The translations under genes and the position numbers were made by a program. DNA of 64,000 nucleotides from Deinococcales bacterium. Its GTDB lineage: Bacteria; Deinococcota; Deinococci; Deinococcales; JAAFIG01. Shown piece after piece: positions 1 to 64,000 of the stretch (the stretch's first letter is position 1; every line of letters begins with the position of its first letter). The stretch lies in NCBI GenBank assembly GCA_013298595.1, contig JAAFIG010000022.1:13765-77764 (forward strand), written 5' to 3'. The notes beneath the pieces are model-generated. The model did not search any database. It worked only from the letters and a program-made list of their open reading frames with translations, and was not told where the DNA came from.

Positions 1-366
1 GAAACCACAGCATTAACTTGCCTCGAGCAACTTTCGGGTATACAGCAAATCGCAGCTCGGCTTGAATTGGCACGGTACGCTAAACAGATCAGCACCCTCG
101 AGCAATGCCGTATCGAAGCAGGACAAAACCGTTCGTATCAATTGCAAATGCAGTTACTTGAGTTGCGTTTAGCCAAATTGCAAAAACGCCGTTTTGATAC
201 CAGCCAATTACTGGTTTTACTCGAGGATGAACCACGCTTAGATAGCCTTCGGGCTTGGCAATTACTATCAAAAACCAAATCTGATACTTTTGCAGCTCGA
301 GCCAGTACTGCTCTTACCTTACAAGCCGAAGGTTTACCAAAGATCCTACGGCAGACACTCCTTTGA
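1..366 (+). CDS. 3' end of an unrecognised gene (partial)
   Basis: The frame is open from the first base and stops with TGA at 364-366, so the last 121 residues of a longer protein are seen. They are rich in Leu, Gln, Glu and Arg and look helical, with a coiled-coil-like stretch around visible residues 20-75 and a Leu-rich end. No domain is recognised. A TTG at 67 could start a 99-residue ORF, but no ribosome binding site precedes it and the frame continues upstream, so a run-in from outside the window is preferred. Four CTCGAG sites (22, 97, 220, 296) lie in it, as in neighbouring resident genes. Confidence 0.6.
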   Translation, partial: ETTALTCLEQLSGIQQIAARLELARYAKQISTLEQCRIEAGQNRSYQLQMQLLELRLAKLQKRRFDTSQLLVLLEDEPRLDSLRAWQLLSKTKSDTFAARASTALTLQAEGLPKILRQTLL

Positions 367-400
367 CGCTGTTTTGACGCACCCTAGTGCACAATAAACC

Positions 401-586
401 ATGGCAGCCGAACCACGCAGCAAACCCACAGATGAAAGCATCTATGTCCTCCGTGTTTGGTCGGATGGCACTGCTTACCGAGCCTCACTTGAAAATGTAC
501 TTTTACAACAAACCAAAGAATTTCAGAACGTTCAAGAACTCGAGGTTTTTCTCGAGGAGCGTATGGTCAGTAAAAGCGGCTCATAG
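401..586 (+). CDS. small hypothetical protein, 61 aa
   Basis: Begins at ATG 401 after a short gap and ends with TAG 584-586. The product is 61 residues, acidic in its second half, with an N-terminal motif ESIYVLRVWSDGTAYRASLE that looks like a compact beta-sheet domain followed by a helix (VQELEVFLEERM). No signal peptide or membrane segment. CACAAT (390-395) ends five bases before the ATG, fitting the leaderless promoters of this genome. It lies between the partial gene and a secreted peptidase. Function unknown; the codon pattern and two CTCGAG sites (539, 551) support a real gene. Confidence 0.6.
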   Translation: MAAEPRSKPTDESIYVLRVWSDGTAYRASLENVLLQQTKEFQNVQELEVFLEERMVSKSGS

Positions 587-628
587 CTCCGTCAAGATTT
601 TGTCAGAATTAAAGTGCACAATAGAGCT

Positions 629-1846
629 ATGAAAATGATTGTTGTTTTATTACTGGTTTTTTGCTCGAGTGCCTTTGCCAGCCCAGCCCAAGATTTACTC
701 AATCAGGCAGCTTATTTTGTGGCAGTTCGTTATAATGGTTTCTCCAGTGCCGATACCAGTAATTTGGCACAAAAATACCAACCCGATTTGGATATCGCTT
801 GTAAAGATCAACTCGAGACCTGTCCGTTTAGTGTGGCTGTGCCAATTGTACAAAAAATGCTGACCGAGCTTGGCGATGGTCATTCGTATTACTTAACACC
901 AAGCCAATACGCCGATCAATTACAACAAGCTCGGGGCTTGGGTAGCTCGAGTCCGCGTTTGGGTGTGATTACTGCCGATGTCAAAGATGGTTTTGATCGG
1001 TTAATTGCCGATGTCTGGGCTGGTTCAGCAGCCGATAAAGTTGGTTTAAAACGTGGTGATCGCATTACGGGCATCAATAATCAAAGCTCGAGTATTTTTG
1101 CCGAGAATTTCCGTACTGCCATTGGTAAAGAAGTGGCAACGGGTAAAGATGTGCTCTTGAATATTCGCCGCGCTGGTTTGCCACTCGAGATTCGGGTGCG
1201 TGGCAGCAGTGTGCGTTCGCCTTTACCAACCTATAAAAGTTTGAATGCAAAAACAGGGTATTTGCGTTTACCCATTTTTGATACCAATGGGCAAGTTGCC
1301 AGCACAGTCCATACTTTGTTACGACAACAAAAACCATTACCTGAACGCCTGATTATTGATGTTCGAGACAACCCAGGTGGGCTTGCCACCGAAATGATTG
1401 GCGCAGTTGGTGCTTTTGTTGAAAAAAGCGGTTTTATCCTCGAGACCAGAGATGGCAGCAGCCAAACCAGTGTTGAAAAAGGTACTGTTTCTATTTCATC
1501 CGTTAAACTCAATATTGTGCCACAACCAATACTCTATAAAGGCAAAGTGATTGTACTGATTAACCAGAATTCGTATAGCGGCGCAGAGTACTTTGCACAA
1601 CTGCTGCAAGACGCAGCTCGAGCCACCATTATTGGCGAAACCAGTGGAGGACTGGGCAACACCGCCACTATTCCCTTTGAATTACTCGATGGTAGCGCCA
1701 TTTTTATTACTATCTCGAAAAGTTTGCGTTTAACTGGCGGTTATTTACCTGCGGCTGTCACCCCAGATATTCTGGTAACCGATAATCTCGAGTTGCAAAG
1801 TCAAACAGGTAAAGATACTGTGCTCGAGCAAGCCTTAAACAGGTAA
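629..1846 (+). CDS. secreted S41 family peptidase (C-terminal processing protease type)
   Basis: 405 residues. The start is placed at ATG 629, which gives a typical signal peptide (MKMIVVLLLVFCSSAFAS); an upstream in-frame GTG at 614 would put charged residues before it. A PDZ-like segment lies at about residues 115-190 (AADKVGLKRGDRITGINN) and the S41 catalytic domain at about 195-390. The likely nucleophile is the Ser of NSYSGAEYFAQLL. The usual catalytic Lys of CtpA enzymes is not obvious: the equivalent region reads GETSGGLGN, as in tricorn/IRBP-like S41 members. Probably a periplasmic or exported serine protease. A 405-410 residue paralogue lies at 16791. Its 3' end overlaps the convergent DUF309 gene by 12 bases. 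CACAAT at 617-622 ends six bases before the start. Confidence 0.85.
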   Translation: MKMIVVLLLVFCSSAFASPAQDLLNQAAYFVAVRYNGFSSADTSNLAQKYQPDLDIACKDQLETCPFSVAVPIVQKMLTELGDGHSYYLTPSQYADQLQQARGLGSSSPRLGVITADVKDGFDRLIADVWAGSAADKVGLKRGDRITGINNQSSSIFAENFRTAIGKEVATGKDVLLNIRRAGLPLEIRVRGSSVRSPLPTYKSLNAKTGYLRLPIFDTNGQVASTVHTLLRQQKPLPERLIIDVRDNPGGLATEMIGAVGAFVEKSGFILETRDGSSQTSVEKGTVSISSVKLNIVPQPILYKGKVIVLINQNSYSGAEYFAQLLQDAARATIIGETSGGLGNTATIPFELLDGSAIFITISKSLRLTGGYLPAAVTPDILVTDNLELQSQTGKDTVLEQALNR

Positions 1847-3264: not shown

Positions 3265-4212
3265 GTGACACTGGCTTTGGTTGGCAATGCTTTTTTGATT
3301 CACGAGGTAGCCAGAAGCTATCTGGTGCAACAACAATTAAATCCTCGAGATGTGCCTTGGCTGGATGATGAAGTTTCGGTTCAAAGTATCGAACCGCATT
3401 TACAAGGTGGTTTGTTTGGCGCGGCATCTTTAGTAGTAGACATTTCTAGCACCAAGGAAGCCAAAGCCATTGCCGAGGCATTGGGGTCTGCACCTGAAGC
3501 CATTGCTGTTTTACTGGATGCAGAAAATTGGAACAGTACCGAAGCGAGTAGCGAAGTGATGCGAAAGAAAAAAGCCCAAGAATCTCGAGTGAAACAATAC
3601 GAGAAACTAGGGTTTACAGTGCAAAACCATGCCACACCAACCAAAGGGGCTTTGATTGCTTGGGTGGCTGAACGTGCTAAGCGCTTAAAACTAGCCGTAG
3701 AACGCGATGTACCCAAATTATTAGCCGATACTTTTCCAGATGATCTTGCCAGTATTGCCAGCGAACTCGAGAAACTGTCTTTACTTGATACCAAACTTGA
3801 TGCTGCAACAGTGGCAAAAGTGGTTAATGCAGTTCAACCCACCACCATGTTTGCAGTGACAGATGCACTGGTCGCCAAAAAGCCACGTGAAGCTTGGGAT
3901 CACCTCGAGCGATTACTCAACAGCAACGAAGACCCTTTTAAGTTACTTGGTGCATTGCAAGGGCATTATCAATTGCTGGCTCGAGCCTTTGCTCTTTCGC
4001 AACGCGATGGAATAGTGAACAGCAAAGAAGCCGCTAAGATATTATCAGTACACGAATTTCGTGCTCAAAAAGCCCTCGAAGCCACCAGACGATACAAAGA
4101 AAGCACCATTCGCCGCGAAATGCGTTTGTTACTCGAGGCAGATGCTGGTATGAAAAGCGGACTTGAAGCCAATTTAACCTTGGAGCGTTTGATTCTCGAG
4201 TTATGTATTTAA
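3265..4212 (+). CDS. holA: DNA polymerase III subunit delta
   Basis: 315 residues from GTG 3265. The start is chosen because TATACT ends six bases upstream; a TTG at 3259 in frame would lie inside the promoter spacing. The delta pattern is recognisable: an N-terminal nucleotide-binding-like fold (LALVGNAFLIHEVARSYL), a middle segment with LLADTFPDDLASIASELEKLSLL typical of HolA, and the C-terminal helical collar domain (DPFKLLGALQGHYQLLARA). Delta opens the sliding clamp as part of the clamp loader. No other replisome gene is adjacent. It converges on the DoxX-like gene with a four-base overlap. Confidence 0.85.
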   Translation: MTLALVGNAFLIHEVARSYLVQQQLNPRDVPWLDDEVSVQSIEPHLQGGLFGAASLVVDISSTKEAKAIAEALGSAPEAIAVLLDAENWNSTEASSEVMRKKKAQESRVKQYEKLGFTVQNHATPTKGALIAWVAERAKRLKLAVERDVPKLLADTFPDDLASIASELEKLSLLDTKLDAATVAKVVNAVQPTTMFAVTDALVAKKPREAWDHLERLLNSNEDPFKLLGALQGHYQLLARAFALSQRDGIVNSKEAAKILSVHEFRAQKALEATRRYKESTIRREMRLLLEADAGMKSGLEANLTLERLILELCI

Positions 4213-5243
4213 ACTGTTTTTTCTTGAATAGGCATTGGACCTTCGCGCATACCTCGTAACCATAATTCGGTATTTTGCGTAGAGTTTTCCCAGATCAGTA
4301 AAACCGCCATTGTGCCATAAATAGGTAGGTGCCCAATCAACTCTGTCCAATCAAAAATGGTCAATGTTAAATTGAGTGGAAACCAAGCAATAACGATAAT
4401 TTCTCGAGTAAAAACATTGGCAACCAAAGCTAAACCAACCAGTAATTCGACACTACCTGCCAGACGAATAAAAATTTCATCTGGAATGGGGAAACCAAGA
4501 CCAGCCGTAAAATTTAATGGTTGCTGCCCAAGGAAAGCTGTGGCAAGGCTTGGATTCCCAAGTTTTTCGCTAAAAGCCGCTGCCATTAAACCCAATCCAA
4601 CCCCAATCCGTAAAGCACTGACGGCATAGCGCATCAGGGTAACGCTTGGCTCGAGTTTAGGAAAAATCAGGCGGTCTATGGCAATTGGTCCACGTCCTGC
4701 TAGGTAGAAAAACCCAGCAAAGCCAAGCACATGGGCATTATCGAGCGCAGCTTCAAGACCAATAAAAGCAATGCTGACAACCCAAAGCCAAGCCAGTACA
4801 ACTGCGGCGGCTCGAGCAAATCCACCATAAAAAAGTGCAAGTGCAATACCGGCTTGTAATAATCCAATCAGGTATGCCCATACTCCTGGTAGTTTAAGTT
4901 CGGGGGCGAACATATTGCCTTGTACACTGGCAACAAAAAGCGGCACAGCAAAATGCACAGCTAAGATAATTGGCACCACACCATACAATGCCATACGGCG
5001 TTGTGGTTGTGCACCAAACCATTCCAGTGTTGGTAAAAAACCACGCTTGTTGCGTTGTTTTTGCCAGAAGCCAAGCACTAAAACCAGCAATACCACGGCA
5101 CCCGCAAAACCCAGTGTGAGTGGTGAAAATACAGCCTTCCAATCGAAAGGCGGGCGTTCACCTGTGTAAAACCATTTGACATGAGCCTCGGCGGGACTCG
5201 AGAGGAGGAGTAATGCGGGTAAGCAGTAAAGCAACCTAAGCAT
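4209..5243 (-). CDS. DoxX-like integral membrane protein
   Basis: 344 residues from ATG 5243, giving a signal-like first helix (MLRLLYCLPALLLLSSPAEA). About eight further hydrophobic helices follow; the part from about residue 190 (SALRIGVGLGLMAAAFSEKLGNP) resembles DoxX/SURF4-type domains, with the typical E-L(V)-G-L-A-L helix at about 265. Function of such proteins is uncertain; they sit in the cytoplasmic membrane and have been linked to redox or oxidative stress. TATTAT ends six bases before the start on the minus strand. A longer start 10 codons upstream is possible but breaks the signal sequence. Confidence 0.7.
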   Translation of the reverse strand: MLRLLYCLPALLLLSSPAEAHVKWFYTGERPPFDWKAVFSPLTLGFAGAVVLLVLVLGFWQKQRNKRGFLPTLEWFGAQPQRRMALYGVVPIILAVHFAVPLFVASVQGNMFAPELKLPGVWAYLIGLLQAGIALALFYGGFARAAAVVLAWLWVVSIAFIGLEAALDNAHVLGFAGFFYLAGRGPIAIDRLIFPKLEPSVTLMRYAVSALRIGVGLGLMAAAFSEKLGNPSLATAFLGQQPLNFTAGLGFPIPDEIFIRLAGSVELLVGLALVANVFTREIIVIAWFPLNLTLTIFDWTELIGHLPIYGTMAVLLIWENSTQNTELWLRGMREGPMPIQEKTV

Positions 5244-5301: not shown

Positions 5302-6012
5302 TTACTTATGAATCTCGAGTTCTAATTTGATATTGCCGCGTCTGGTTTCGCCTTCAATCCGCTTAAACTCAATCCGACCCAAACCCTCAGCCGACAAAGT
5401 ATCACCAGCCCGCACACCCGTACTCGAGGTAGCAATATTGCCATTAACCCGCACTTTTTTACCTTCAATACCCGCTTGGAAGTACGCCCGCGAAACACCA
5501 AAACCTTTAGCCCCCACCACATCCAAACGCAAACTTGGCACAACCACACTACGGGTTTTTATACCACGCTCGAGCAACTTGCCTTCGGCTGCCACAAAAC
5601 GCACAGGCAACGTTCGACCTTGCAAAACCAATTCGGTCATCGCCTCGAGTTGCTTAGCCATTTTTTGCGTCGTCGCCAGCAAAAAATCGTTACGATCAGC
5701 TCGGATATCACCCAACACTTCTGCAGGTAATGCCAATGCCACCCGCACATCCTCGGCATCCACATCCAAAGAAACATCCGCCTCGAGCCGCAAAACCCGC
5801 ACAGGATCATCCACATTGGGAATATGCTCTGGATACAAGGTATAAATCACACGATTTGCATCCGAAAAACCACCATGCGCCGCAAAACGCACACCATCGG
5901 CTGCTAACGCCCGACGATCCAAATCTGTACCTTCAAGAAAACCTGTGCGAATCACTCGACCACCACGTGCTTGTTGCACCAAGGCACGGGTATCAATCGG
6001 GGTGGCACTCAT
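5302..6012 (-). CDS. YlmH-like S4-domain RNA-binding protein
   Basis: 236 residues. The C-terminal S4 domain is clear (VVVPSLRLDVVGAKGFGVSR ... GKKVRVNGNIA ... GLGRIEFKRIEGETRRGN). The N-terminal half contains YTLYPEHIPNVDDPVRVLRL, wording I associate with Deinococcus members of the YlmH family. YlmH proteins bind RNA and act on ribosomes or in cell-division clusters of Gram-positives; the precise role here is not known. TAAACT ends six bases before ATG 6012, another leaderless start. This gene is the best single pointer to Deinococcota. Confidence 0.85.
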   Translation of the reverse strand: MSATPIDTRALVQQARGGRVIRTGFLEGTDLDRRALAADGVRFAAHGGFSDANRVIYTLYPEHIPNVDDPVRVLRLEADVSLDVDAEDVRVALALPAEVLGDIRADRNDFLLATTQKMAKQLEAMTELVLQGRTLPVRFVAAEGKLLERGIKTRSVVVPSLRLDVVGAKGFGVSRAYFQAGIEGKKVRVNGNIATSSTGVRAGDTLSAEGLGRIEFKRIEGETRRGNIKLELEIHK

Positions 6013-6102
6013 ACACGGAGTTTAACTCGAGATGAGCAGGACAAGCAAGAATAAAAAAGTATCAAGCTAAAACCACTCACTTGATACGCAAAAGATTGTT
6101 GA

Positions 6103-6660
6103 TTAACGACCAAAAAACGCAGTGAAACTGGTTTTTGCAATTGCATTACCATTGATATTAAAACCCACAAAAGCTTGCGAAGCATTGCTTGGCAACTCGA
6201 GTTTTTCCGTACCCAAAGCGTACAATGTAAATGTATACCGATGTGGTTTTTCGCCGCTTGGTGGACAAGGTCCACCATAACTGGCAGAGCCAAAACTGGT
6301 TGTAGCTTGAACCGCACCAGCAGGTAAGGTTTTACTGTTCTCCAGTCCCGCATTTTTCTCGAGTTGCGTGGTGCTGGCTGGAATGTTGTAAACAATCCAG
6401 TGGGTAAAGCCACCAACGCCGGTTTGAGCATCCGAGTCATGCAGTATCAGTGCAAAGCTTTTTGTACCAGCAGGTGTGCCGCGCCAAGTTAAAGCAGGTG
6501 AAATATTTTTGCCAGTGCAACCAAAACTGTTAAAAACGTGCTCGAGTTTGATGGTTGAACCAGCCGCAATATCAGGACTTTGCAATGTAAATACAGTACT
6601 TTGAGCAAAAGCGGCAACCGTTAAAGCAAGCATGACCATCAGAGCAACAATTTTTTTCAT
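6103..6660 (-). CDS. YbhB/YbcL family (PEBP, Raf kinase inhibitor-like) exported protein
   Basis: 185 residues from ATG 6660, preceded by a good GGAGG four bases upstream and starting with a signal peptide (MKKIVALMVMLALTVAAFAQ). PEBP hallmarks are seen: SPALTWRGTPAGTKSFALI, the acidic HDSDAQ segment, GFTHWIVYNIP, and YGGPCPPSGEKPHRYTFTLYAL. The fold binds anionic ligands such as phosphate groups; the bacterial role is unclear. It follows the DJ-1-like gene on the same strand with 36 bases between them, so the two may be co-transcribed under the same LysR control. Confidence 0.9.
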   Translation of the reverse strand: MKKIVALMVMLALTVAAFAQSTVFTLQSPDIAAGSTIKLEHVFNSFGCTGKNISPALTWRGTPAGTKSFALILHDSDAQTGVGGFTHWIVYNIPASTTQLEKNAGLENSKTLPAGAVQATTSFGSASYGGPCPPSGEKPHRYTFTLYALGTEKLELPSNASQAFVGFNINGNAIAKTSFTAFFGR

Positions 6661-6696
6661 AAAACCTCCAAAGAATTCTTCTAACAACCCCAAGTA

Positions 6697-7359
6697 TTAA
6701 GCCTCGAGCATGGCAACAACCGCCTCAGCGACACCTCGAGCCGAAGCTGGGTTTTGTCCAGTAATTAAGCGCTCAGAAATTTGCACATTGGCTTGGAAAT
6801 TATCTGTAGCCACATGTTTAGCACCACGCTCCAACAAGGCTGACTCGAGTAAAAATGGCACAGTATTGGTTAAACCCACCGAGGCTTCTTCGGCATTGGT
6901 AAAAGCTGCCACTTGCTTGTTTGCCACCAAGTACTCGCCATTCTCGAGCCGAATGTTGATCAGCGCGGCTGGTCCATGACAGACAGCAGCCACCACACCA
7001 CCAGCATCGTAAATCTTGGCTGCTACACTCGAAAGGGCTGTGTTATTAGGAAAATCCCACATGGTGCCGTGTCCACCAACATAAAAAATGGCAGCGTAAT
7101 CCTTAGGATTAATCTGCTCGGCAGGTAGACTATTTTCGAGTTTAATTTTGTTTTGCTCGAGAAATGCGACATGCTCTGGGTTATCGGCTTTGAAACCATC
7201 CACGGGTGGTACGCCACCTTTAGGGCTGGCAAAATCAATTTTGTACCCTTGAGCAGCAAATACTTGAAATGGATGTATCGCTTCGGGCAGGTAATACCCT
7301 GTTTTTCGTAAGCCACCAAGGTCATCATGACTGGTCAGCACCATCAAAATCTTTTTCAT
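6697..7359 (-). CDS. DJ-1/PfpI type 1 glutamine amidotransferase-like protein (Hsp31-like)
   Basis: 220 residues from ATG 7359, with AGGAG upstream. The nucleophile elbow AAVCHGPAAL holds the catalytic Cys; the Glu/acid and the late TGQNPASARGVAEAV segment are as in Hsp31/glyoxalase III-like proteins. Members degrade methylglyoxal or repair glycated molecules; which applies cannot be told. A LysR regulator is transcribed divergently from the adjacent 95-base gap, a common arrangement for regulator and target, suggesting stress- or electrophile-induced expression. Confidence 0.85.
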   Translation of the reverse strand: MKKILMVLTSHDDLGGLRKTGYYLPEAIHPFQVFAAQGYKIDFASPKGGVPPVDGFKADNPEHVAFLEQNKIKLENSLPAEQINPKDYAAIFYVGGHGTMWDFPNNTALSSVAAKIYDAGGVVAAVCHGPAALINIRLENGEYLVANKQVAAFTNAEEASVGLTNTVPFLLESALLERGAKHVATDNFQANVQISERLITGQNPASARGVAEAVVAMLEA

Positions 7360-7441
7360 AGAACTCCTTGCACTCATCTCGAGGCACAATCAGATTAGGT
7401 GGTTTTTTGCCATAAAACAAATAGTTTAATTGCATATCAGC

Positions 7442-7447
7442 TATAAT
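7442..7447 (+). promoter_or_regulatory. -10 box of the LysR gene
   Basis: TATAAT stands seven bases before ATG 7455, with no room for a ribosome binding site. The 95-base divergent gap 7360-7454 also has to hold the LysR operator for the DJ-1-like gene; AT-rich ATAGTTTAATTGCATATCAG just upstream is the likely binding stretch. Confidence 0.6.
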
Positions 7448-7454
7448 TTTTATT

Positions 7455-8342
7455 ATGGATAATCTCAATCAACTTCGTACATTTCTAGCTGTGTACCAAA
7501 ACAATTCGATTTCCAAAGCTGCCGAACAATTACACATCACGCAACCTGCGGCTACTAAGCAATTACAACAACTCGAGGCGCGTTTAGCTCGGCAATTATT
7601 TGCCAGAGTCGCTCGAGGCGTGCTGCCAACCCCAGCCGCCCATGAATTAGCCAGACAAGTTGGTGTGCATCTCGAGGCACTAGATAACGTGACCAATGCC
7701 ATGAAATTAGGCACGAAAAACCTCACTGGAACTGTTTTTCTTGGTGGACCCGCCGAGTTCATTGGTGAGAAAATCCTGCCGAGTCTCAAAGCCTTACCCG
7801 AGCAACAAATTCAAATTCGGGTACAACTCGAGCAACCCGAAAATCTGAAAAGCGCGTTACTGGCTGGTACCTTAGACTTAGCCGTTTTTACCGTGCGGCG
7901 CAGTGATAGTAAACTTGAGAGTGCAGCCCTGTACCAAGAAGAACTTGTTTTGGTCGGCAGCCGATTCTGGGCAGAACGCTTACCCAAACAACAGATCAAT
8001 GCTGCCATGCTCGAGCAAGTGCCATTGCTGGCATACGCCGAGGATTTACCAATGCTACGGCGTTACTGGCGCAAAGTTTTTAATACTACACCGAAAGTCA
8101 GTGCCGCCCTTGTGATACCTGATTTACACGCCCTCGAGCATGCCGTAGTTGCAGGGTATGGAATAACCGTTTTACCACGTTACTTGGTTGAAAAAAACCT
8201 TTCTACCAGTGCATTAGTCGAGTTAGTGATACCAAATCAAGCCCCGACTAATCAATTGTATTTAGGTTGGCGTTCCAACAAATTGCAAGCTCGAGTAATT
8301 TTTGTCAGAGATACCCTGCTTCGAGCCTCGAGTATCTGGTGA
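7455..8342 (+). CDS. LysR family transcriptional regulator
   Basis: 295 residues. The N-terminal winged helix (MDNLNQLRTFLAVYQNNSISKAAEQLHITQPAATKQLQQLEARL is the region, residues 1-45) is canonical; the rest is the periplasmic-binding-like effector domain, ending with the LVELVIP/LGWRSNK strand pattern. It is divergent from the DJ-1/PfpI gene, which it probably regulates. Leaderless start at ATG 7455. Effector unknown. Confidence 0.9.
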   Translation: MDNLNQLRTFLAVYQNNSISKAAEQLHITQPAATKQLQQLEARLARQLFARVARGVLPTPAAHELARQVGVHLEALDNVTNAMKLGTKNLTGTVFLGGPAEFIGEKILPSLKALPEQQIQIRVQLEQPENLKSALLAGTLDLAVFTVRRSDSKLESAALYQEELVLVGSRFWAERLPKQQINAAMLEQVPLLAYAEDLPMLRRYWRKVFNTTPKVSAALVIPDLHALEHAVVAGYGITVLPRYLVEKNLSTSALVELVIPNQAPTNQLYLGWRSNKLQARVIFVRDTLLRASSIW

Positions 8343-8343
8343 T

Positions 8344-9276
8344 TTAATACCCTCGAGTTCGATCTACCACATGCTCGAGTGGTTGCCCTGAGCGTAAACG
8401 CAAAACATTTGTTGCCACCACTTTGGCTGCTGTGATTGGATTGGTGGCGGCTGCCACATGCGGCAAGACTGTGATTTGAGGATGATGCCAGAACAGATGA
8501 TCTGTTGGTAATGGTTCGGTGGTAAAGACATCGAGAATCGCATGTTGCAAATGCCCAGAATCAAGAGCTGCAAGCAAATCCGCTTCGATGATATGTGCTC
8601 CTCGAGCCAGATTGATGATACTCGAGCCAACAGGTAAGTAACTCAGTGTTTGTGCATTGAGAATCCCTCGAGTTTCGTCGGTAAGTGGTAATAAATTGAC
8701 CAGAATTTCGCTTTGCTCGAGCATGGTTTGTAAGCCATCCTGACCAGAAAAAGTCTGTATACCCTCGAGATTTGTTGGGCGTGAACTCCACCCGAGTACA
8801 ACAAAACCCAATTGCTTGAGTTGCACAGCAGCAACCCGTCCGAGATGCCCTAAACCCAGCACAGCAACTTTTCGTTCAGCAGCGCTGGGTTGCGGTAATT
8901 GCTGCCAAACCTTGGCTTGTTGCTGCGCCTGATAAGCTGGAATTTGCCGATGCAAACTTAGCACATGGGTTAAAACCGTCTCGAGCATGGCTTGGGTGAG
9001 AGCAGGGTCTACCAATCGTGCTAAAGGAATGTCTCGAGGGAGCGTCGCATCGCGCAGTAACGCATCCACTCCTGCCCATAAGGACTGAATCAATTTTAGA
9101 TTTGGCAGTGTTGCCAGCACACCCGCAGGCGGGTTTGCCACCAATGCCACATCAATATCAGCTAAATTTGGCAAATCAGGATACACACAAAACTGCTCGG
9201 CGGGTAAAGCTTGCTCGAGTAATGGCAACCACATTTGTACTTCGTTACTGGTAAAATTCGTTAAGAGCAAAATCAC
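8344..9276 (-). CDS. D-isomer specific 2-hydroxyacid dehydrogenase (glyoxylate/hydroxypyruvate reductase-like)
   Basis: 310 residues from GTG 9276 (MILLLTNFTS); a longer frame exists but would run into recR, and GAGG lies just before the GTG. The Rossmann motif VAVLGLGHLGRVAA is at about residue 137, followed by NLARGAHIIEADLLAAL and the DVF-TEPLP and HVAAATNP segments that carry the catalytic Glu and His. The conserved Arg lies in INLARG. Closest in style to GhrA, reducing glyoxylate or hydroxypyruvate with NAD(P)H. It starts 14 bases after the recR stop on the same strand, so it is likely co-transcribed with recR. Confidence 0.8.
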   Translation of the reverse strand: MILLLTNFTSNEVQMWLPLLEQALPAEQFCVYPDLPNLADIDVALVANPPAGVLATLPNLKLIQSLWAGVDALLRDATLPRDIPLARLVDPALTQAMLETVLTHVLSLHRQIPAYQAQQQAKVWQQLPQPSAAERKVAVLGLGHLGRVAAVQLKQLGFVVLGWSSRPTNLEGIQTFSGQDGLQTMLEQSEILVNLLPLTDETRGILNAQTLSYLPVGSSIINLARGAHIIEADLLAALDSGHLQHAILDVFTTEPLPTDHLFWHHPQITVLPHVAAATNPITAAKVVATNVLRLRSGQPLEHVVDRTRGY

Positions 9277-11820: not shown

Positions 11821-12663
11821 ATGAGTGCTGATGTTCTAGCAGCTTTGTGGGGTTTAGCGGCAGCTTTTGCGTGGGGTTCGGGCGATTTTGCGGGTGGGCT
11901 TGCCACACGGCGTTCAGGTGAATTAACAGTCATGCGGGTCTCGAGTGTGATTGGACTGGTTTTCTTGGTGGCTTTGGCATTGATACGCGGTTCGCCTTTA
12001 CCAAGCGTGCGTGATGCCTTGCTTGGGGTTGCAGGTGGAGCGTTTGGGGTGATTGGTTTAATTACTTTGTACCGTGCTTTAGCCACTGGGCAAATGAGTC
12101 TGGTTGCGCCGATCACAGCCGTGGTGGCAAATACTGTGGCTGTCACCGTCAGTGCATTGACCGAAGGCGTACCGGGAATGCTGAAATGGGTTGGGTTTAT
12201 TTTGGCTGCTTTTGGTGTTTGGTTACTCAGTCGCCCCGAAGGTACAGTTCGACTCTCGAGTTCAGCACTGGTTTTATCGCTCATAGCTGGTGTAACTTTT
12301 GGTGGGATTTTTTCGGTAACAGCCCAATTTTCAAAAGCTGATGTGAGTTGGAGTATTGTGGCACTGCGGTTCACCACAGTCATATTGATTTTTGCCATTA
12401 TCGCTTTTCGGCGCGGTGTTCCAGCCTTACCAAAAGCTTTGCTACCGTATGTCGCTGTGGCAGGTATTTGCGATAGCCTAGGCAATGTTTTCTTTGCATT
12501 GGCAGGGCAAGCAGGAAGGCTTGATGTCAGTGCAGTCTCGAGTTCGTTATACCCTGCTTTTACACTTTTTCTAGCAGTGATTGTTTTGCGTGAACGCTTG
12601 CAAGGGTGGCAATTGTTTGGCGCAGCTTTGTGTTTAATCAGTATTGGTTTGATTGTTGTTTAG
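11821..12663 (+). CDS. EamA/DMT family transporter
   Basis: 280 residues with ten predicted membrane helices in two EamA halves; the first helix carries WGLAAAFAWGSGDFAGGLATRRSG, and the second half ends SSLYPAFTLFLAVIVLRERLQGWQ, the typical EamA signature. The substrate is unknown (the superfamily exports amino acids, nucleosides or other metabolites). GAGG lies six bases before the ATG. Probably co-transcribed with the B3/4 gene. Confidence 0.9.
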   Translation: MSADVLAALWGLAAAFAWGSGDFAGGLATRRSGELTVMRVSSVIGLVFLVALALIRGSPLPSVRDALLGVAGGAFGVIGLITLYRALATGQMSLVAPITAVVANTVAVTVSALTEGVPGMLKWVGFILAAFGVWLLSRPEGTVRLSSSALVLSLIAGVTFGGIFSVTAQFSKADVSWSIVALRFTTVILIFAIIAFRRGVPALPKALLPYVAVAGICDSLGNVFFALAGQAGRLDVSAVSSSLYPAFTLFLAVIVLRERLQGWQLFGAALCLISIGLIVV

Positions 12664-12693
12664 TTTTTAAAAATAGGCTCGAGTTTTCTGACA

Positions 12694-18633: not shown

Positions 18634-20304
18634 TCAGTCTTCACTCGTTCCATCGTCTGCCATTTTGACAATTCTTGGGTCAAATCGTGCTACCACTTTG
18701 ACCAAATCGGTTTGGGCGTTCATGACTGAATCAATGTTTTTATAAGCCAGTGGATTCTCGTCAATACCCGCCGATAAGAGGGTTACACCTGCTGCCTCGA
18801 GTTGCGGTTTAATCATTTTCCAATTGAATTGCTCTTTGGCTTTGGTGCGGCTCATGGCTCGTCCCGCACCGTGGCTGGCACTATGTAAGCTGTTGGCGTT
18901 GCCCAGTCCTCGAACCACAAAACCTGGGGTTGCCATGCTGCCCGGAATCATGCCAAGGACTCCGTTGCCAGCTGGCGTTGCACCTTTGCGGTGCACGTAG
19001 ACATCCTTGGGTGTGCCGTCTATGTTGTGTTGCTCGAGCCATGCAAAGTTATGATGGTTTTCTAAACCAAATAGCACACTGGCGCCAATGGCTTTGATCA
19101 CTTTTTTGTGAATCAGTGCATGGTTAGCACTGGCATACTCGCCCATTAAGTTCATGGCTGCCCAGTACTCGAGTCCTGCTTCTGAGGTCATATCGAGCCA
19201 AGAAAGGTGCTTGAGTTCCTTAGGTAATTCTGGGTGTAAACCCATGGCAAGGTTCGAGTAATGGTTTGCCACTTTCGCACCAGCGCCTCGTGAACCACTG
19301 TGCGATAACAAAGCTAGGTACTCGCCTGCTTCGAGTCCAAGGTCTGGTTTCTCGAGGGTGATAACGCCAAATTCAACAAAGTGATTACCACTGCCTGAGG
19401 TGCCAAGTTGCTCTCGAGCTTTACTGAACACTTCTCGAGTGACTCGGGTGACATTCCAGTCCATATCGAGTACAGCATGCTCGAGTGGGCGTTGCCAAGT
19501 TGCTCCTGCACCGAATTTGGTTTCGGATTCGATGGCTCGTTTTAATTCCTCGAGGTTACGGGTAAAGGCTTTAGAAACAGGGATATCCAGAATGGATAAT
19601 TTCATTCGGCAAGCAATATCCACACCAACAGCATACGGAATAATCGCACCTTCGGTGGCGAGTACCCCACCAATTGGTAAACCATAACCAAGGTGAGCAT
19701 CGGGCATCAGTGCGCCACGAACAGCCACAGGTAAACGCGCCGCATGACGCATTTGCTCGAGTGCCCCATTTTCGATTCCTTCGCCCCAAACTTGGTATGG
19801 CACTGGTTCATCTCGAGCCACAATCGGTTTTGGTTTGGTGAGTTCTGGAATTAAATCTGCAAAATGCCCGCTGTAATCGAGCGGATTAGCCATCAGCACT
19901 TTTAGATCGCGCAGCATTTCGCGCTTATCAGGGTGCGATTTTAAGAGTTGCGCGGTTAAAGCAAGGGCGCTTTGTGGAATGCCAAGGGCTAATAATTCTT
20001 TTGCTTTCATGATTGGTTTTTCCTTGTGTTGTGTTCGGATTGGTTCAGCGGCAATTGCTCCTGGAGTTGCTCCTGCTTCGCCTGAATGGGTTAAGTCATC
20101 AAACTTTGTGCGTCTATCCCAACGTATACCGCGATCATCACGAATGTACTGTACTCGATGCCACGGAATTTCGCTTTGTCCAAAAGATTCAAGACTGGTT
20201 TCTTGTAAACCATCGAATCTTGAGTCGAAACCAACGCTGAAATCCGAGATTTCAAAACGTGGATCATGACTGATTTGTTTGTAAATGCTTTTTGCGGGGG
20301 TCAT
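18634..20304 (-). CDS. rtcB: RtcB RNA ligase with N-terminal DUF504 (MJ1316-type RNA repair) domain
   Basis: 556 residues from ATG 20304 (GAGGA upstream). Residues about 1-75 resemble the DUF504/MJ1316 domain that recognises RNA ends (SEIPWHRVQYIRDDRG then RWDRR). After a linker, RtcB begins at about residue 99 and contains the metal and guanylation motifs: DAHLGYGLPIGG, GVDIACRM, HSGSRGAG, ENHHNFAW, and SASHGAGR with the nucleophilic His. RtcB joins 2',3'-cyclic phosphate or 3'-phosphate to 5'-OH ends using GTP and Mn. An internal ATG at 20010 with AAGGA ahead of it would make a 457-residue RtcB alone, so both fused and separate products are possible. Alone in its transcription unit. Confidence 0.88.
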   Translation of the reverse strand: MTPAKSIYKQISHDPRFEISDFSVGFDSRFDGLQETSLESFGQSEIPWHRVQYIRDDRGIRWDRRTKFDDLTHSGEAGATPGAIAAEPIRTQHKEKPIMKAKELLALGIPQSALALTAQLLKSHPDKREMLRDLKVLMANPLDYSGHFADLIPELTKPKPIVARDEPVPYQVWGEGIENGALEQMRHAARLPVAVRGALMPDAHLGYGLPIGGVLATEGAIIPYAVGVDIACRMKLSILDIPVSKAFTRNLEELKRAIESETKFGAGATWQRPLEHAVLDMDWNVTRVTREVFSKAREQLGTSGSGNHFVEFGVITLEKPDLGLEAGEYLALLSHSGSRGAGAKVANHYSNLAMGLHPELPKELKHLSWLDMTSEAGLEYWAAMNLMGEYASANHALIHKKVIKAIGASVLFGLENHHNFAWLEQHNIDGTPKDVYVHRKGATPAGNGVLGMIPGSMATPGFVVRGLGNANSLHSASHGAGRAMSRTKAKEQFNWKMIKPQLEAAGVTLLSAGIDENPLAYKNIDSVMNAQTDLVKVVARFDPRIVKMADDGTSED

Positions 20305-20386
20305 AAAAAATCCTCTTGCCACTATTGTGCAATAAAGATTTTTTGAATGCGCCTTTGTAATAGCGTAAGCAAGATGAGCTACTGGC

Positions 20387-22999: not shown

Positions 23000-23005
23000 T
23001 TCGCG

Positions 23006-23011
23006 TAAAAT
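23006..23011 (+). promoter_or_regulatory. -10 box, leaderless start
   Basis: TAAAAT ends six bases before ATG 23018. The tandem repeat occupies the place of the -35 region and upstream element. Confidence 0.5.
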
Positions 23012-23017
23012 ACAAGT

Positions 23018-54142: not shown

Positions 54143-55273
54143 ATGCCCGAAGTTGTATTGCCTTTATTCCCAGATTTTCAGCTTTCAAATGCCACGCATT
54201 TCCGATTTGCTGATATTTTCGCTGGCATTGGCGGAATGCGCTTGGGTTTTGAAGCGACTGGTGGGCAATGCGTTTTTTCATCAGAATGGGATGTATATTC
54301 CCAAAAAACCTATTTTGCCAATCATAGTGATTACCCCAAAGGCGACATCACCCAAATTCCCTCGAGTGAAATCCCAGATTTTGATGTGTTACTGGCAGGT
54401 TTTCCATGCCAACCATTTAGCAGCATTGGTTTACGCCAAGGCTTTTTACACCAAACCCAAGGCACATTGTTTTACGAAATTGCCCGTATTCTCAAAGATA
54501 AAAAACCACTTGCATTCTTGCTCGAGAATGTCAAAGGTTTACTCAGCCACAATAACGGCGAAACCATGCAAATTATTCTCGAGACACTCAGCGAATTGGG
54601 TTACACCGTGCAACACCAAGTGCTGGATGCCTCGGAATTTGGCGTACCCCAAAAACGCGAACGCATTTACATTGTCGGCTATAGAACAACAGCTTTCCTC
54701 GAGAAACCACAATTTAGCTTTCCCAAAGCCACAAAAACCGATGTCTACATTGGGCAATTTATTGAATCCAATGTGACAGGTTACGAAATTTCCGAGCATT
54801 TACAAAAAACCTATATCTTCAAAAAAGACGATGGCAAACCCGCCATTGTTTCACCAGACTCGAGCATCCAAATCAAAACCCAAGTGGCTTCGTATCATAA
54901 AATTCAACGCTTAACTGGCACTTTTGTACGCGATAGCAAAACAGGTTTACGATTACTAACCGAAAACGAATGCAAAGCCATCATGGGATTCCCAAAGCAT
55001 TTTGTATTCCCAGTCTCGAGAACCCAAATGTACCGACAGATTGGGAATTCGGTAGCTGTACCCGTGATTATAGAAATTGCTCAAGCTACGCGAAAACAGA
55101 TTATTGGAAAAAACGTGAACAAAAAATTATTGATAGAAAGGGCAAACACGAGGTTTGCCCCTACGAAAACACAATCCAAAAAAGAATTTTTACATGTAGG
55201 GGCGATGCTTGTCATCGCCCTGCTTTTACATCCAATGCAATGGTCTACCCTTGCCCACGCGGTACTCGCATGA
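54143..55273 (+). CDS. solitary C5-cytosine DNA methyltransferase
   Basis: 376 residues. Motifs in order: I FADIFAGIGGMRLGFEATGG, IV AGFPCQPFSSIGLRQG with the catalytic Cys, VI FLLENVKGLLSHNNG, VIII QKRERIYIVGYR, a target-recognition region of about 90 residues, then IX/X RLLTENECKAIMGFPKHF and YRQIGNSVAVPVI. No restriction endonuclease gene is adjacent. The specificity cannot be read. The last 45 or so residues (from about 332) are not family sequence: they are encoded by two hairpin repeats at 55140 and 55196. The stop overlaps the next start (ATGA, 55270-55273). CTCGAG density in the gene is like that of residents. Confidence 0.93.
   Translation: MPEVVLPLFPDFQLSNATHFRFADIFAGIGGMRLGFEATGGQCVFSSEWDVYSQKTYFANHSDYPKGDITQIPSSEIPDFDVLLAGFPCQPFSSIGLRQGFLHQTQGTLFYEIARILKDKKPLAFLLENVKGLLSHNNGETMQIILETLSELGYTVQHQVLDASEFGVPQKRERIYIVGYRTTAFLEKPQFSFPKATKTDVYIGQFIESNVTGYEISEHLQKTYIFKKDDGKPAIVSPDSSIQIKTQVASYHKIQRLTGTFVRDSKTGLRLLTENECKAIMGFPKHFVFPVSRTQMYRQIGNSVAVPVIIEIAQATRKQIIGKNVNKKLLIERANTRFAPTKTQSKKEFLHVGAMLVIALLLHPMQWSTLAHAVLA
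55140..55164. repeat. dispersed hairpin repeat, reverse orientation
   Basis: GGGCAAAC - ACGAG - GTTTGCCC then CTAC. Read on the minus strand it begins GTAGGGGCAAACCTCGTG, matching the design of the copy at 32298. It lies inside the 3' end of the methyltransferase frame. Confidence 0.85.
55196..55220. repeat. dispersed hairpin repeat
   Basis: GTAG then GGGCGATG - CTTGT - CATCGCCC, eight perfect pairs. Second copy within the methyltransferase frame, in opposite orientation to the one at 55140, so the two enclose 31 bases between them. Confidence 0.85.
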
Positions 55274-56481
55274 ATCCGATTCTTTCTAAACCCCAAACCC
55301 TCGAGTTATTCGCTGCGCCGGGTTGTCTCGAGGAAGCTTCGCTCGAAGTTGAAGCCATTGTTGCCAATCCGTGGAAGCCTTTAAAATTTGCCCCGCGTGT
55401 TGAATTACAAAAAGGTTTTGTGCGGGTGAAAAATGCCTCATGGGATTTTGCTTGTGAGCTGGCGGCGAGGTGCAGCACGTTGCACGATGTGCGCTTGATG
55501 TTTCCTGCGGCTCGAGTACATGGTTGGAATGATTTACCTCGGGTTTTGCAGCGCTTACCGTGGGGGGTGTTGCTGCCCGAATTTGAACCGCTCGAGTTTC
55601 GTTGTGAGGCGTTTGCAGGTGTGATGCCACACGCGGCTCGAATGACTAAAATTGCCGAGGAATTATTTGTTGAAAATGGTTTTGTGCTGTCTGCCGATGA
55701 ACCGCATACCAAAATTTATCTAACCTCGAGTGGCGATTACTTACGAGTCGCGGTGAGTCTTGGCAACGATGCTTTGCATAAACGCGGTTGGCGTGCCAGC
55801 ACTGGCACGCTGGCAACGCTGCGTGAAGATATTGCTAGTGCGGCATTGCAACGCTTAGCCGCGTTTGAACCTCGAGTCCGTGAAACAACGCAAATTGCTG
55901 TGCCTTTCGCAGGCAGTGGCACTTTGGGTATCGAAGCGTGGCATAGTTTATTTGGATTACCACCAAGTATTTGGGCAGCTGAACGCCCGTGGCATCGTCT
56001 GAGCATGCCGAGCGCTGCAACCCTCGAGTGGTGGCAGAAACGCAGTCGTAAAGCTGCCGATGCTACTAACTTGCCCGAAATTGTTTTTCTGGAAAATAAT
56101 GCCGAGCAAATTAAAGAACTCGAGCGCAACACAAAAAAAGTTCGGAGTATCCTCGAGTCGGCTCAGATTTCGGTGATTCATGCCGATGCGTTTAGTACCA
56201 ATTTTCTGGCTCGAGATGGCATTGTTTTGCTGCCATTACACCCGCCGTATGGGTTGCGTTTAGATACCCAAGAAGAAAACCCCGAAACCTTATTTGCTCG
56301 GCTTGGAAAAAGTGTTCAAGCATGGCAACTCGAGTCAAACATCATTGGTTTTTGTTTGTGCCCTAGCGAAGCAGCATGGCGAGCATTCAAGAATACTCTC
56401 GAGGGAATGCGGGTACAAACCACGCATTTAACCCAAGGTGGATTGGATATTCGCTTGTGCTGTTTTACAAACTTAGTCTAA
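55270..56481 (+). CDS. THUMP/RlmL-type class I SAM-dependent RNA methyltransferase
   Basis: 403 residues from ATG 55270 (MNPILSKPQTLELFAAPGCLE). The N-terminal part is THUMP-like; the SAM-binding motif is IAVPFAGSGTLGIEAWHS at about residue 215, preceded by KRGWRASTGTLATLREDIA, the equivalent of the H-RGYR and AP-RE-LAA motifs of RlmL/TrmN. The catalytic NPPY appears as LHPPYGLRL, with His in place of Asn, which is unusual for a guanine-N2 methyltransferase. Acts on rRNA or tRNA. Translationally coupled to the DNA methyltransferase. Confidence 0.8.
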   Translation: MNPILSKPQTLELFAAPGCLEEASLEVEAIVANPWKPLKFAPRVELQKGFVRVKNASWDFACELAARCSTLHDVRLMFPAARVHGWNDLPRVLQRLPWGVLLPEFEPLEFRCEAFAGVMPHAARMTKIAEELFVENGFVLSADEPHTKIYLTSSGDYLRVAVSLGNDALHKRGWRASTGTLATLREDIASAALQRLAAFEPRVRETTQIAVPFAGSGTLGIEAWHSLFGLPPSIWAAERPWHRLSMPSAATLEWWQKRSRKAADATNLPEIVFLENNAEQIKELERNTKKVRSILESAQISVIHADAFSTNFLARDGIVLLPLHPPYGLRLDTQEENPETLFARLGKSVQAWQLESNIIGFCLCPSEAAWRAFKNTLEGMRVQTTHLTQGGLDIRLCCFTNLV

Positions 56482-61380: not shown

Positions 61381-61409
61381 AAAAGTATGCACCAAGGAGA
61401 ACAATCCCC

Positions 61410-62156: not shown

Positions 62157-62166
62157 TGTTTTGCTC

Positions 62167-62195: not shown

Positions 62196-62201
62196 AATGT
62201 G

Positions 62202-62540
62202 GTGGCAAAACCTTTTTTCTTTGATACCAAAGCCCATATGCTGATTTGTACCGATCCACGTTGTGCTGAAAGCGGCTCGAGTGTGTTATTTCAAGCTGTG
62301 TGGCAAGGCTTAGAAACCGAAAAATTAGCTTATTATAAAACAGGTGGCAATTTGCGTTTATCCGAAAGCGGTTGTCTTGGGGCATGCAATTTTGGTCCAA
62401 CTGTGGCTTGTTATTTTAAGCGCAATAATCATCTCGAGCAGGCATGGTTTGCCAATATGGATTACCCTAAAACCATGCAGTTAGCTAAGGCATTACAGGC
62501 TGACCTCGAGTTGCCTGTGCTTGGGCGTTTTGATTTGTAA
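62202..62540 (+). CDS. thioredoxin-like [2Fe-2S] ferredoxin domain protein
   Basis: 112 residues from GTG 62202; the frame upstream overlaps the promoter. Cluster ligands are ICTDPRC (two Cys) and SGCLGACNFGP (two Cys), the pattern of NuoE-like thioredoxin-fold [2Fe-2S] proteins. Electron carrier of unknown partner. No cobalamin or complex I gene is adjacent. Confidence 0.85.
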   Translation: MAKPFFFDTKAHMLICTDPRCAESGSSVLFQAVWQGLETEKLAYYKTGGNLRLSESGCLGACNFGPTVACYFKRNNHLEQAWFANMDYPKTMQLAKALQADLELPVLGRFDL

Positions 62541-62596
62541 AAGCGAAGCCGCTGCAAAGCGGGAGGTCAGTGCGCGACTTCAGACATAGTTTGTGG

Positions 62597-63904
62597 TTAG
62601 GTTATTAAATCCAGATGAAATGTCATACGGATTCGTGTACCACGACTTTGGCTACTATCAATCTCGAGTTGACCTTTATGTGCTCTAACCACGGCTTGCA
62701 CCACAGCTAAACCCAGTCCGCTGCCTTCTCGAGTACCAATTCGATGAAATGGCTCGAGAATATCTGATTGCACTGTTGCAGCAATACCAATGCCTGTATC
62801 GCTCACTTCAAGCCAGACTGTATTTGTGGTGCTTTGCACTTGGATTTCGATGCTGCCTGTGTCGGTAAATTTAATACCATTGGCAATCAGGTTTTCGATG
62901 GCTCGAGCCATTAAAATAGCGTCTCCCATCAGTAATCCTGCCTGACCATAGCAGCGAATCTCGAGATTTTTTTGTACAGCAAGTGGTGCGAGTAAATCGG
63001 TGGCATTGCCTGCAATTTCGAGTAAATCGATTGGGGTGGCACAAATGGTTCGTTCGGTGTTGGTTAAGGTTAATAAATTCTGGGCTAAGGCTTGTAAATG
63101 CTGCATTTGCTGTTCGGTTTTTTGCATGGTTTCTTGATCGCTTACTGCTGTTCTGGGTTCTTTGCGTCGTAGCTCGAGCATAGTCTGAATGGCTGTAATC
63201 GGTGTGCGAAGTTCATGGGCAGCATCGGCAAGAAAACGGTTTTCTTTTTGTCGTACCTCAAGCATGAGAACTCGGCACGTTTCCAGTGCTCGAGCCAAAA
63301 CCCCAATTTCATTTTGCTTATTTTGCCACGGCACTGGTTTTTGCAACATGGTTTTACCGTCTGCCCAAAGAGCCAATTGCTCGAGTTGACCTGTACGCCG
63401 ACGCGCCAAAATCAATGTGATACCACCCGTCAACAATGCCAATACAACCCCAATAATGCTGGCATTTTGCTGATAAATTGCCAGTACGCGCTGCATATTT
63501 TTTAAGGAACGCCCCATTTGAATAATCCTCGAGCCTTTTCGCCAACTGAGCACCCGCCACGCACCGACACTACCAATACGCGTATTTTCTGTGGTTGTAA
63601 AAAAACTGGCATCGAGTGGTTCTATTGCTTTAAAAAACCCTGCACCTATCAATAATTGCTTATTTTCGTAAACCCAAACAACACTGTTACCATCAGGAGT
63701 ATCTAAGGCATCTTGCACATATCGGTTCAAAGTTTGACTGATCTCGAGCGAAGTTTGTACCACGCGAAATTGAATTTTTAATTCAGCATCTAAATCTTGT
63801 TCTAAATTTCGTTGCAAAGCTAGACCACTAAAAATACCAAGTAATAACAATGCCATCAGTGTTAAAAACAAAGATACGTCGGGTGCTAGTGGATGACTTG
63901 CCAA
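62597..63904 (-). CDS. sensor histidine kinase
   Basis: 435 residues from TTG 63904; the true start is uncertain because no ribosome site is visible. Two membrane helices (about 12-30 and 148-170) flank an extracytoplasmic sensor of about 115 residues; a HAMP-like segment follows; then the H-box FLADAAHELRTPITAIQTML, N-box ENLIANGIKFTD, G1 VSDTGIGIA and G2 GSGLGLAVVQAVV. No response regulator is adjacent in the window. Divergent from an LptF/LptG-like gene 30 bases away. Confidence 0.88.
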   Translation of the reverse strand: MASHPLAPDVSLFLTLMALLLLGIFSGLALQRNLEQDLDAELKIQFRVVQTSLEISQTLNRYVQDALDTPDGNSVVWVYENKQLLIGAGFFKAIEPLDASFFTTTENTRIGSVGAWRVLSWRKGSRIIQMGRSLKNMQRVLAIYQQNASIIGVVLALLTGGITLILARRRTGQLEQLALWADGKTMLQKPVPWQNKQNEIGVLARALETCRVLMLEVRQKENRFLADAAHELRTPITAIQTMLELRRKEPRTAVSDQETMQKTEQQMQHLQALAQNLLTLTNTERTICATPIDLLEIAGNATDLLAPLAVQKNLEIRCYGQAGLLMGDAILMARAIENLIANGIKFTDTGSIEIQVQSTTNTVWLEVSDTGIGIAATVQSDILEPFHRIGTREGSGLGLAVVQAVVRAHKGQLEIDSSQSRGTRIRMTFHLDLIT

Positions 63905-63934
63905 AATTGTCTCAAAAGCGGAGGATGCAAATCT

Positions 63935-64000
63935 ATGAGAACCCGCACCCTCCTCGGCAAGTATATCATCTCTGACATCTTCATCGCTGTTTTCACAGTC
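63935..64000 (+). CDS. LptF/LptG (YjgP/YjgQ) family permease, 5' end (partial)
   Basis: Only 22 codons before the window ends: MRTRTLLGKYIISDIFIAVF and so on, the usual start of LptF/LptG permeases (R-x-L-x-K-Y-I, then a first membrane helix). GGAGG ten bases upstream supports ATG 63935. In didermous bacteria these proteins move lipopolysaccharide; Deinococcota lack classical LPS, so the cargo would be another envelope lipid. Tentative because so little is visible. Confidence 0.55.
   Translation, partial: MRTRTLLGKYIISDIFIAVFTV

Follow-up and report, generated by a model that had tools for sequence, protein, structure and literature searches.

We found that the hexamer CTCGAG is a highly iterated palindrome in a Deinococcales genome. 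It occurs 393 times in the window (the whole stretch of 64,000 nucleotides analysed here, positions 1..64000), which amounts to one copy per 163 bp in coding and non-coding DNA alike. The enrichment is independent of frame, gene strand and genes, and it is phylum-wide, with losses in some lineages. CTCGAG is probably a member of the class of highly iterated palindromes (HIPs) known from cyanobacteria, and probably serves as a methylation mark, a function that we infer from the evidence below.

CTCGAG is enriched in every frame and across the phylum

Base composition predicts 13.4 copies in the window, and dinucleotide shuffles yielded 6.29 +/- 2.52, with 15 as the largest count. Each 1-kb bin held 2-12 sites, the richest being 8001..9000 (n=12), and the nine positions that the earlier note had listed in bases 1-1000 were all recovered, as were its seven copies in 23001-24000. 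In the whole genome (4.58 Mb) we counted 27,159 copies, about 31 times expectation and one per 169 bp; the reversed control GAGCTC had only 15. A Markov check excluded a count near expectation: models of order 1-3, trained with CTCGAG masked, predicted 29-50 copies vs 2,709 counted, an excess of 50-90 fold. The order-4 ratio was just 1.2x, because that model already includes TCGAG and CTCGA. The iteration is stronger than the earlier note had claimed. The bases flanking CTCGAG are unconstrained and form no consensus. HIP1 (GCGATCGC) or its CGATCG core is not the repeat here, CGATCG having 1 copy in the window vs 13.4 predicted. Avoidance of GAG/CTC half-sites was also considered; general depletion of GA/AG dinucleotides accounts for most of it.

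The gene at 614..1846 (+) illustrates the indifference to frame, with sites read as Leu-Glu (812, frame 0), Ser-Ser (664, frame 2) and Ala-Arg-Ala (1617, frame 1), while the site at 12678..12683 lies between genes, 15 bp beyond the stop codon that closes the ORF at 11821-12663. Over codon expectation, CTCGAG is 16-40x enriched in all three frames, and its density is 5.67 per kb in intergenic vs 5.86 per kb in coding DNA. Together with the spread of the pattern through the whole clade, these results bear out the proposal that it acts at the DNA level, and they exclude dicodon preference in one frame as the full cause. The remark that sites lie in terminator stems fared less well: a simple scan returned one terminator-like hairpin (at about 56823) with CTCGAG in its arm, which supports it weakly.

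The signal saturates nearly every permitted position and spells 68% of Leu-Glu pairs. In the proteome, Leu-Glu pairs stand at 2.29x over expectation and Glu-Leu at 0.99x; a signal in DNA has reshaped protein composition across the proteome.

We counted CTCGAG in 111 genomes. By base composition, the excess is 20-31x in four members of the window's family and in two genomes from a neighbouring genus, and the rest of the phylum lies at roughly 2-12x, apart from a few lineages without enrichment. The enriched set comprises f1, g11, g8 and the f5 genera; G004, G107, G110, g7 and g16 are without enrichment. Site density in enriched genomes is 5,900-7,700 per Mb, one per 130-170 bp. Between f1 genomes, site positions could be compared in too few orthologues (54-70% protein identity), and at that identity positional conservation is uninformative because CTCGAG usage is saturated. 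A pattern scan of viral contigs, run as a phage check, returned low-complexity or GC-rich contigs and no clear CTCGAG-bearing case.

Spacing and mutational neighbours of the sites

In all the well-sampled lineages that we examined, CTCGAG sites avoid one another at distances under about 30-50 bp, even when the amino-acid sequence is held fixed. At a fixed dipeptide, the usage of CTCGAG is about 0.8, but only 0.24 once another site lies within 9 bp. A second frame behaves likewise, as do other f1 genomes, g11 and the f5 genomes. Spacings of 60-100 bp are in slight excess, and no 10-11 bp helical phasing between sites was seen. Generic hairpin avoidance was rejected: non-palindromic inverted 6-bp repeats stand at 1.1-1.25x at short distance and are not depleted. 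Since ordinary hairpin avoidance does not cause the repulsion, the placement of sites is governed either by selection or by a process that works on occupied DNA. This short-range mutual exclusion is new here, and its dependence on distance at a fixed dipeptide favours selection over replenishment.

For CTCGAG, all three transition neighbours show the same excess (1.9-2.1x), and some transversion neighbours, CACGAG and CGCGAG, are at half of expectation. The equality of the transition neighbours implies that CTCGAG is no deamination hotspot for 5-methylcytosine (m5C). The window does encode a C5-cytosine DNA methyltransferase (54143..55273, +), the only PF00145 protein found in its genome. G001, of the same genus, has an orthologue (73.6% identical), and G012 encodes a conserved relative. 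We found nothing that ties this enzyme to CTCGAG methylation, and the absent C-to-T signature speaks against it. Of the methylation site that the earlier note had offered as one option, the m5C form is thus disfavoured, and adenine methyltransferases are associated with CTCGAG in part of the phylum.

Candidate adenine methyltransferases and MutS

Two unrelated families of orphan adenine methyltransferases, A and B, occur in g13, g18 and part of f3. In g13 they are complementary: family A is present in 14/18 genomes and family B in 4/18, never both, so that all 18 are covered. Family A alone was rejected as an explanation: it is missing from several g13 genomes whose enrichment is just as high, and these led to family B. 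The locus of family A is constant in up to six genomes from five f3 genera, where dnaG lies on one side and ATP-synthase genes on the other, and no nuclease gene could be seen next to it. Family B aligns over its full length with M.BseCI (E 6e-35), which we take to be an m6A enzyme for ATCGAT, and in G009 a family-B gene adjoins a pseudogene of an XhoI-family nuclease. This neighbour and the homology suggest that the two families may recognise CTCGAG.

Median codon-corrected enrichment is 4.2 with A or B vs 1.6 without (p 6e-6, a value that ignores phylogeny and draws partly on 20-kb samples). We found neither family in the window's own genome, nor in G000, G001, G003, G012 and G016, the genomes with the most extreme enrichment. 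G002 has only a distant family-B relative, adjoining an ORF without assigned identity, and in g17 the enrichment occurs with neither A nor B. The gamma and beta DNA methyltransferases inspected in G000 mostly look like parts of restriction-modification systems. Among PF07669, PF02384, PF01555, PF00145 and PF02086, no single methyltransferase is conserved in all enriched genomes.

Restriction-modification systems of the XhoI/PaeR7I type have the same recognition sequence. Unlike their targets, CTCGAG in the enriched genomes G000-G003, G008, G012, G016 and the f5 genera stands without the cognate nuclease (XhoI, PF04555), and enriched genomes carry families A and B without XhoI. Intact XhoI-family genes occur in the phylum only in G018, G022 and G023, which have fewer CTCGAG sites than their congeners.

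MutS presence goes with enrichment more loosely than the presence of A or B. Codon-corrected enrichment is 3.45 in genomes with MutS vs 1.71 in the others (p 0.003, again ignoring phylogeny and partly from 20-kb samples), and within f3 MutS tends to occur together with family A (6/7 vs 3/32, p 2e-4, with the same two limits). MutS is not sufficient, as g7 and g16 have it and show no enrichment, nor clearly necessary, judging from G001, G078, G100 and G108 (partly incomplete assemblies).

Possible functions and known parallels

The explanation that we prefer, tentatively and as a plausible rather than a probable one, is that CTCGAG is a selected HIP-class signal, the site of an orphan m6A methyltransferase, and perhaps read in repair. 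It would be a 6-bp signal in double-stranded DNA, which selection on the DNA itself keeps close to saturation, and the mark would be m6A rather than m5C. Part of the phylum may use family A or B as the writer, and the window's family another enzyme. With less confidence, we suggest that the mark could be read once replication has passed, strand choice in MutS-dependent mismatch repair being one example. A mark near every mismatch would then pay, and two within one protein footprint (under about 30-50 bp) would add nothing. Against the repair reading, mismatch-repair theory gives a useful range near 1 kb and not an exclusion at 30-50 bp. A bolder form, which we consider unlikely though worth stating, is a phylum-wide epigenetic coordinate system. 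In it, interchangeable orphan methyltransferases would place m6A on CTCGAG within about 100-200 bp of every base and no nearer than a protein footprint, the mark would be read for repair strand choice or chromosome organisation, and the proteome would have been rewritten on the way (Leu-Glu 2.3x).

The most serious rival, itself on the unlikely side, is that CTCGAG binds an abundant DNA-organising protein of the nucleoid or chromosome structure, methylation being incidental. Density would then reflect the chromosome coverage needed, and sites nearer than the footprint would be redundant or mutually exclusive, hence the repulsion. The repulsion at 20-50 bp and the excess at 60-100 bp match the size of a protein footprint, and equal intergenic and coding density and free flanks fit as well; however, no candidate protein was identified, helical phasing is missing, and the complementarity of A and B in g13 is left unexplained.

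We judge it improbable that CTCGAG accumulated without selection, as a side effect of biased mismatch repair or of gene conversion that turns near-matches into it, an origin put forward for alternative HIPs (Elhai 2015, PMC4390886). Saturation would suit such a drive, as would the scarcity of CACGAG and CGCGAG, but the transition neighbours are in excess and not consumed. Moreover, a site-by-site drive gives no reason for the 3-fold drop in use near another site, and the Leu-Glu enrichment would cost fitness with no return. Of the three options left open by the earlier note, a mark or a binding site is thus favoured over simple conversion or mutation bias.

We doubt still more that CTCGAG is a DNA-uptake sequence built up by biased natural transformation. 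Natural competence is common in Deinococcota, and over-representation across the genome with effects on proteins is typical of known uptake sequences such as the Neisseria DUS and Haemophilus USS. Yet those are non-palindromic, 9-12 bp long and near one per kb, whereas CTCGAG is a perfect 6-bp palindrome at the far higher density given above; the 30-50 bp exclusion is far shorter than transformed fragments, and g7, which we take to be the highly competent Thermus, has no enrichment beyond codon use. Finally, codon-pair preference is retained for g7 (GC-rich, where codon use explains most of the zero-order excess and leaves a codon-corrected O/E of 0.6-1.1), g16 and part of f3, and the window is poor in many other palindromes, but as general causes codon preference and restriction-driven avoidance of all palindromes except CTCGAG are scarcely credible, the first being refuted for f1, g11 and g13 by frames 1 and 2 at 16x and 30x over codon expectation and by the intergenic density, and the second being unable to yield a 30x excess from an absence of avoidance.

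As the earlier note proposed, HIP1 holds as the closest parallel. HIP1 and the alternate HIPs are short, GC-rich, hyper-abundant palindromes, clade-wide with exceptional lineages, associated with orphan methyltransferases and of unknown function (Elhai 2015, PMC4390886). CTCGAG resembles them in its genome-wide excess, which has no coding, codon or intergenic-repeat cause, and in its spread through a clade with lineages that lack it. Unlike HIP1, it has 6 bp, free flanks and no GATC or GC core, and it belongs to another phylum. It is also denser than most HIPs (roughly 500-2,500 per Mb), and its candidate methyltransferases are adenine-specific and were not found in the most extreme genomes. 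The short-range repulsion is described here for CTCGAG only. Searches of the open-access literature turned up no description of CTCGAG as such an element in Deinococcota, in line with the earlier note, which knew of none. Beyond the cyanobacteria, CTCGAG is a second and denser case of a highly iterated palindrome, probably of independent origin.

The GATC/Dam/MutHLS system of enterobacteria offers another comparison: GATC is likewise palindromic, its density is comparable, at about one site every 240 bp in E. coli, its adenine methylation serves strand choice in repair, and MutS is present in genomes of this phylum too. GATC, however, is near chance frequency in E. coli, and CTCGAG is about 30x over.

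HIP1 has been unexplained since the 1990s, partly through its confinement to cyanobacteria. A palindrome several-fold denser in another phylum, ranging from absent to extreme among close relatives, provides the missing natural comparison. The enrichment extends to genera that appear to be cultivable: by size and GC, g13 and g18 apparently resemble Meiothermus and its allies. Families A and B are candidate enzymes for genetic work. CTCGAG is also an example of a DNA-level signal that alters composition proteome-wide, and its repulsion at a fixed amino-acid sequence is a quantitative hint at what reads the signal.

Abundance and distribution of CTCGAG

We found that the enrichment of CTCGAG is real, phylum-wide and very large. 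The counts and positions that an earlier note had listed for the window were correct on recount, and the window as a whole holds 393 copies, against 13.4 expected from base composition and 6.3 (maximum 15) in dinucleotide shuffles. Among the 64 six-base palindromes compared there, CTCGAG alone is strongly enriched (the runner-up reaches 2.8x) and 17 are missing. The bases flanking it in the window are unconstrained, and it is therefore not a piece of a longer repeat. The host genome, G000 (4.58 Mb), carries 27,159 copies, about 31x expectation; a Markov comparison of the kind proposed in the note, run at orders 1-3 with the sites masked, gave 29-50 expected copies in 464 kb versus 2,709 found. 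One sampled piece of G000 (L095 1-20000; G000:C12:1-20000) has 58 copies in 20 kb versus 95-144 in other samples, and is possibly a recently acquired island. The reversed sequence, GAGCTC, occurs 15 times in G000 and 2-25 times per genome in G000, G001, G002, G003, G012 and G016, all strongly enriched genomes, a near-absence that seems to exceed the effect of GAG/CTC depletion.

We surveyed 111 genomes of Deinococcota, with enrichment computed by composition and then corrected for codon use on about 2-340 kb per genome. The window's family f1 (four genomes) and genus g11 of family f2 (two genomes) hold 5,900-7,700 copies per Mb, that is 20-31x, or 10-29x after codon correction. By composition, G008 and the genera g13, g17 and g18 of family f5 reach about 4-10x (g7 and g19 of that family excepted) and parts of family f3 3-10x. 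After correction, most g13 genomes stand at 2-6x and G099 at 16x, with little or none in g7 (0.6-1.1x), G024 of genus g16 (1.3x), G107, G110 and G004 (0.2x).

Action on DNA and repulsion between sites

The proposal that selection or bias acts on DNA rather than on codons holds. Across 373 predicted genes, CTCGAG exceeds the expectation from codon usage 40x in frame 0, 16x in frame 1 and 30x in frame 2, which a dicodon preference in one frame would not produce, and its intergenic density equals the coding density (5.67 versus 5.86 per kb). It spells 68% of Leu-Glu pairs and is used in about 70% of Ala-Arg-Ala positions. The composition of the proteome is itself bent to fit the palindrome: Leu-Glu occurs at 2.29x its expected frequency versus 0.99x for Glu-Leu, and Ser-Ser is raised too (1.54x).

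Under a null that keeps the amino-acid sequence, spacings between neighbouring sites are depleted below 30 bp and enriched at 60-200 bp. In the cleanest test, the share of Leu-Glu written CTCGAG rises with distance to the nearest other site, from 0.24 below 9 bp to 0.34 at 9-15, 0.57 at 21-30 and about 0.81 at 60-100 bp. Use of CTCGAG in frame-1 arginine contexts likewise drops close to another site; the same distance test gave 0.45 climbing to 0.77 in the other f1 genomes, and g11 and f5 genomes show the same short-distance drop in smaller numbers.

The palindrome works like the highly iterated palindromes (HIPs) and belongs with them, sharing the genome-wide excess, the independence of codon use and the presence across a clade with losses; of the parallel drawn earlier, this part stands, whereas the specific sequence of the cyanobacterial HIP1 is not matched. 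As a best but tentative account, CTCGAG would carry an adenine-methylation mark that may be read after replication, with selection favouring dense but spaced coverage. Repulsion is predicted by selection with local redundancy or by protein occupancy, and the latter would fit the main rival, that CTCGAG is the binding site of a structural protein, which we consider rather unlikely. Repulsion is not expected from a mutational or conversion bias that acts only locally. Nor does a general avoidance of hairpins account for it, since other inverted 6-bp repeats within these genes are not depleted at such short distances (1.1-1.25x).

The three transition neighbours of CTCGAG each occur at 1.9-2.1x expectation and the transversion neighbours at 0.5-1.1x; we interpret this pattern as a halo left behind by sites that were lost not long ago. 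TTCGAG and CTTGAG show no specific excess over CCCGAG, which argues against C5-methylation of either cytosine.

Candidate methyltransferases (METHYLTRANSFERASES) and mismatch repair

In cyanobacterial genomes where palindromes are hyper-abundant, Elhai (2015, PMC4390886) found a methyltransferase that can modify those palindromes, and proposed that they originate in methylation-directed mismatch repair. We sought the equivalent of this enzyme in Deinococcota. With PF07669, PF02384, PF01555, PF00145 and PF02086, no DNA methyltransferase conserved throughout f1 was found, and the search identified no responsible methyltransferase in the genomes with the strongest enrichment. Elsewhere in the phylum, the methyltransferase expected of the HIP class may, judging from sequence, be supplied by two unrelated orphan adenine-methyltransferase families, A and B.

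Family A proteins are about 550 aa long with an NPPF motif, have CamA and M.BseCI as their nearest solved structures, and occur in 14 of the 18 g13 genomes. In G005, G087 and G100 the gene is flanked by dnaG and the ATP-synthase genes, and in G099, G017 and G101 it adjoins the latter; no neighbouring nuclease gene is visible in any of these. Family B, with an NPPY motif and a length of about 580 aa, matches M.BseCI, which methylates ATCGAT, over its full length, and occurs in exactly the four g13 genomes without A, as well as in g18. This non-orthologous replacement within one genus suggests that A and B share one function and one target. With f1 and g11 excluded and kinship ignored, median codon-corrected enrichment is 4.2 in genomes with A or B versus 1.6 without (p 6e-6).

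XhoI cuts CTCGAG. In G009 (L228 3787-6300; G009:C1:1093787-1096300), an intact family-B gene adjoins an XhoI-family nuclease pseudogene broken by stop codons, apparently a restriction system that has decayed and left the methyltransferase as an orphan. Only G018, G022 and G023 have intact XhoI-family genes, and they hold 1,390-1,947 CTCGAG versus 3,640-4,718 in their congeners G010, G014 and G021 (some assemblies are incomplete), as expected of a restricted target.

MutS was found in 70 of the 111 genomes; G004, G107 and G110, all three losses within palindrome-bearing families, gave no match. Ignoring kinship, codon-corrected enrichment is 3.45 with MutS versus 1.71 without (p 0.003), and within f3 family A and MutS tend to be found together (6/7 versus 3/32, p 2e-4). 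However, g7 and g16 have MutS and lack the palindrome, while G001, G050, G078, G100 and G108 (some fragmentary) are enriched yet without a MutS match; alternatively, a genome that loses mismatch repair may undergo more transitions, which would erode the sites. MutS is therefore a correlate of the enrichment, not a demonstrated cause.

Restriction systems and other features of the host genome

Most of the methyltransferases inspected in G000 seem to be accompanied by a nuclease gene; one such pair matches a PADLOC type II nuclease (E 3e-106) and another a NotI-family domain. Such pairing fits the marked avoidance of GGCC (2 copies in the window where 188 are expected, and 0.01x in 400 kb of the same genome), CCGG (0.1x in the window and sampled contigs) and other palindromes, which points strongly to several restriction systems and spares CTCGAG alone. 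At 54143-56481 the window carries the one C5-cytosine methyltransferase found in G000, for which an orphan-methyltransferase model is the best match in PADLOC, and after it an overlapping ORF that has a UPF0020-like domain. A hairpin-like repeat, GGGCAAACACGAGGTTTGCCCC (55139-55175), has close BLAST copies on several contigs of G001 and G002 and is a REP-like element present in more than one genus. At 18634-20322 the window encodes a fusion of an RtcB RNA ligase with an MJ1316 RNA-cyclic-group-end recognition domain.
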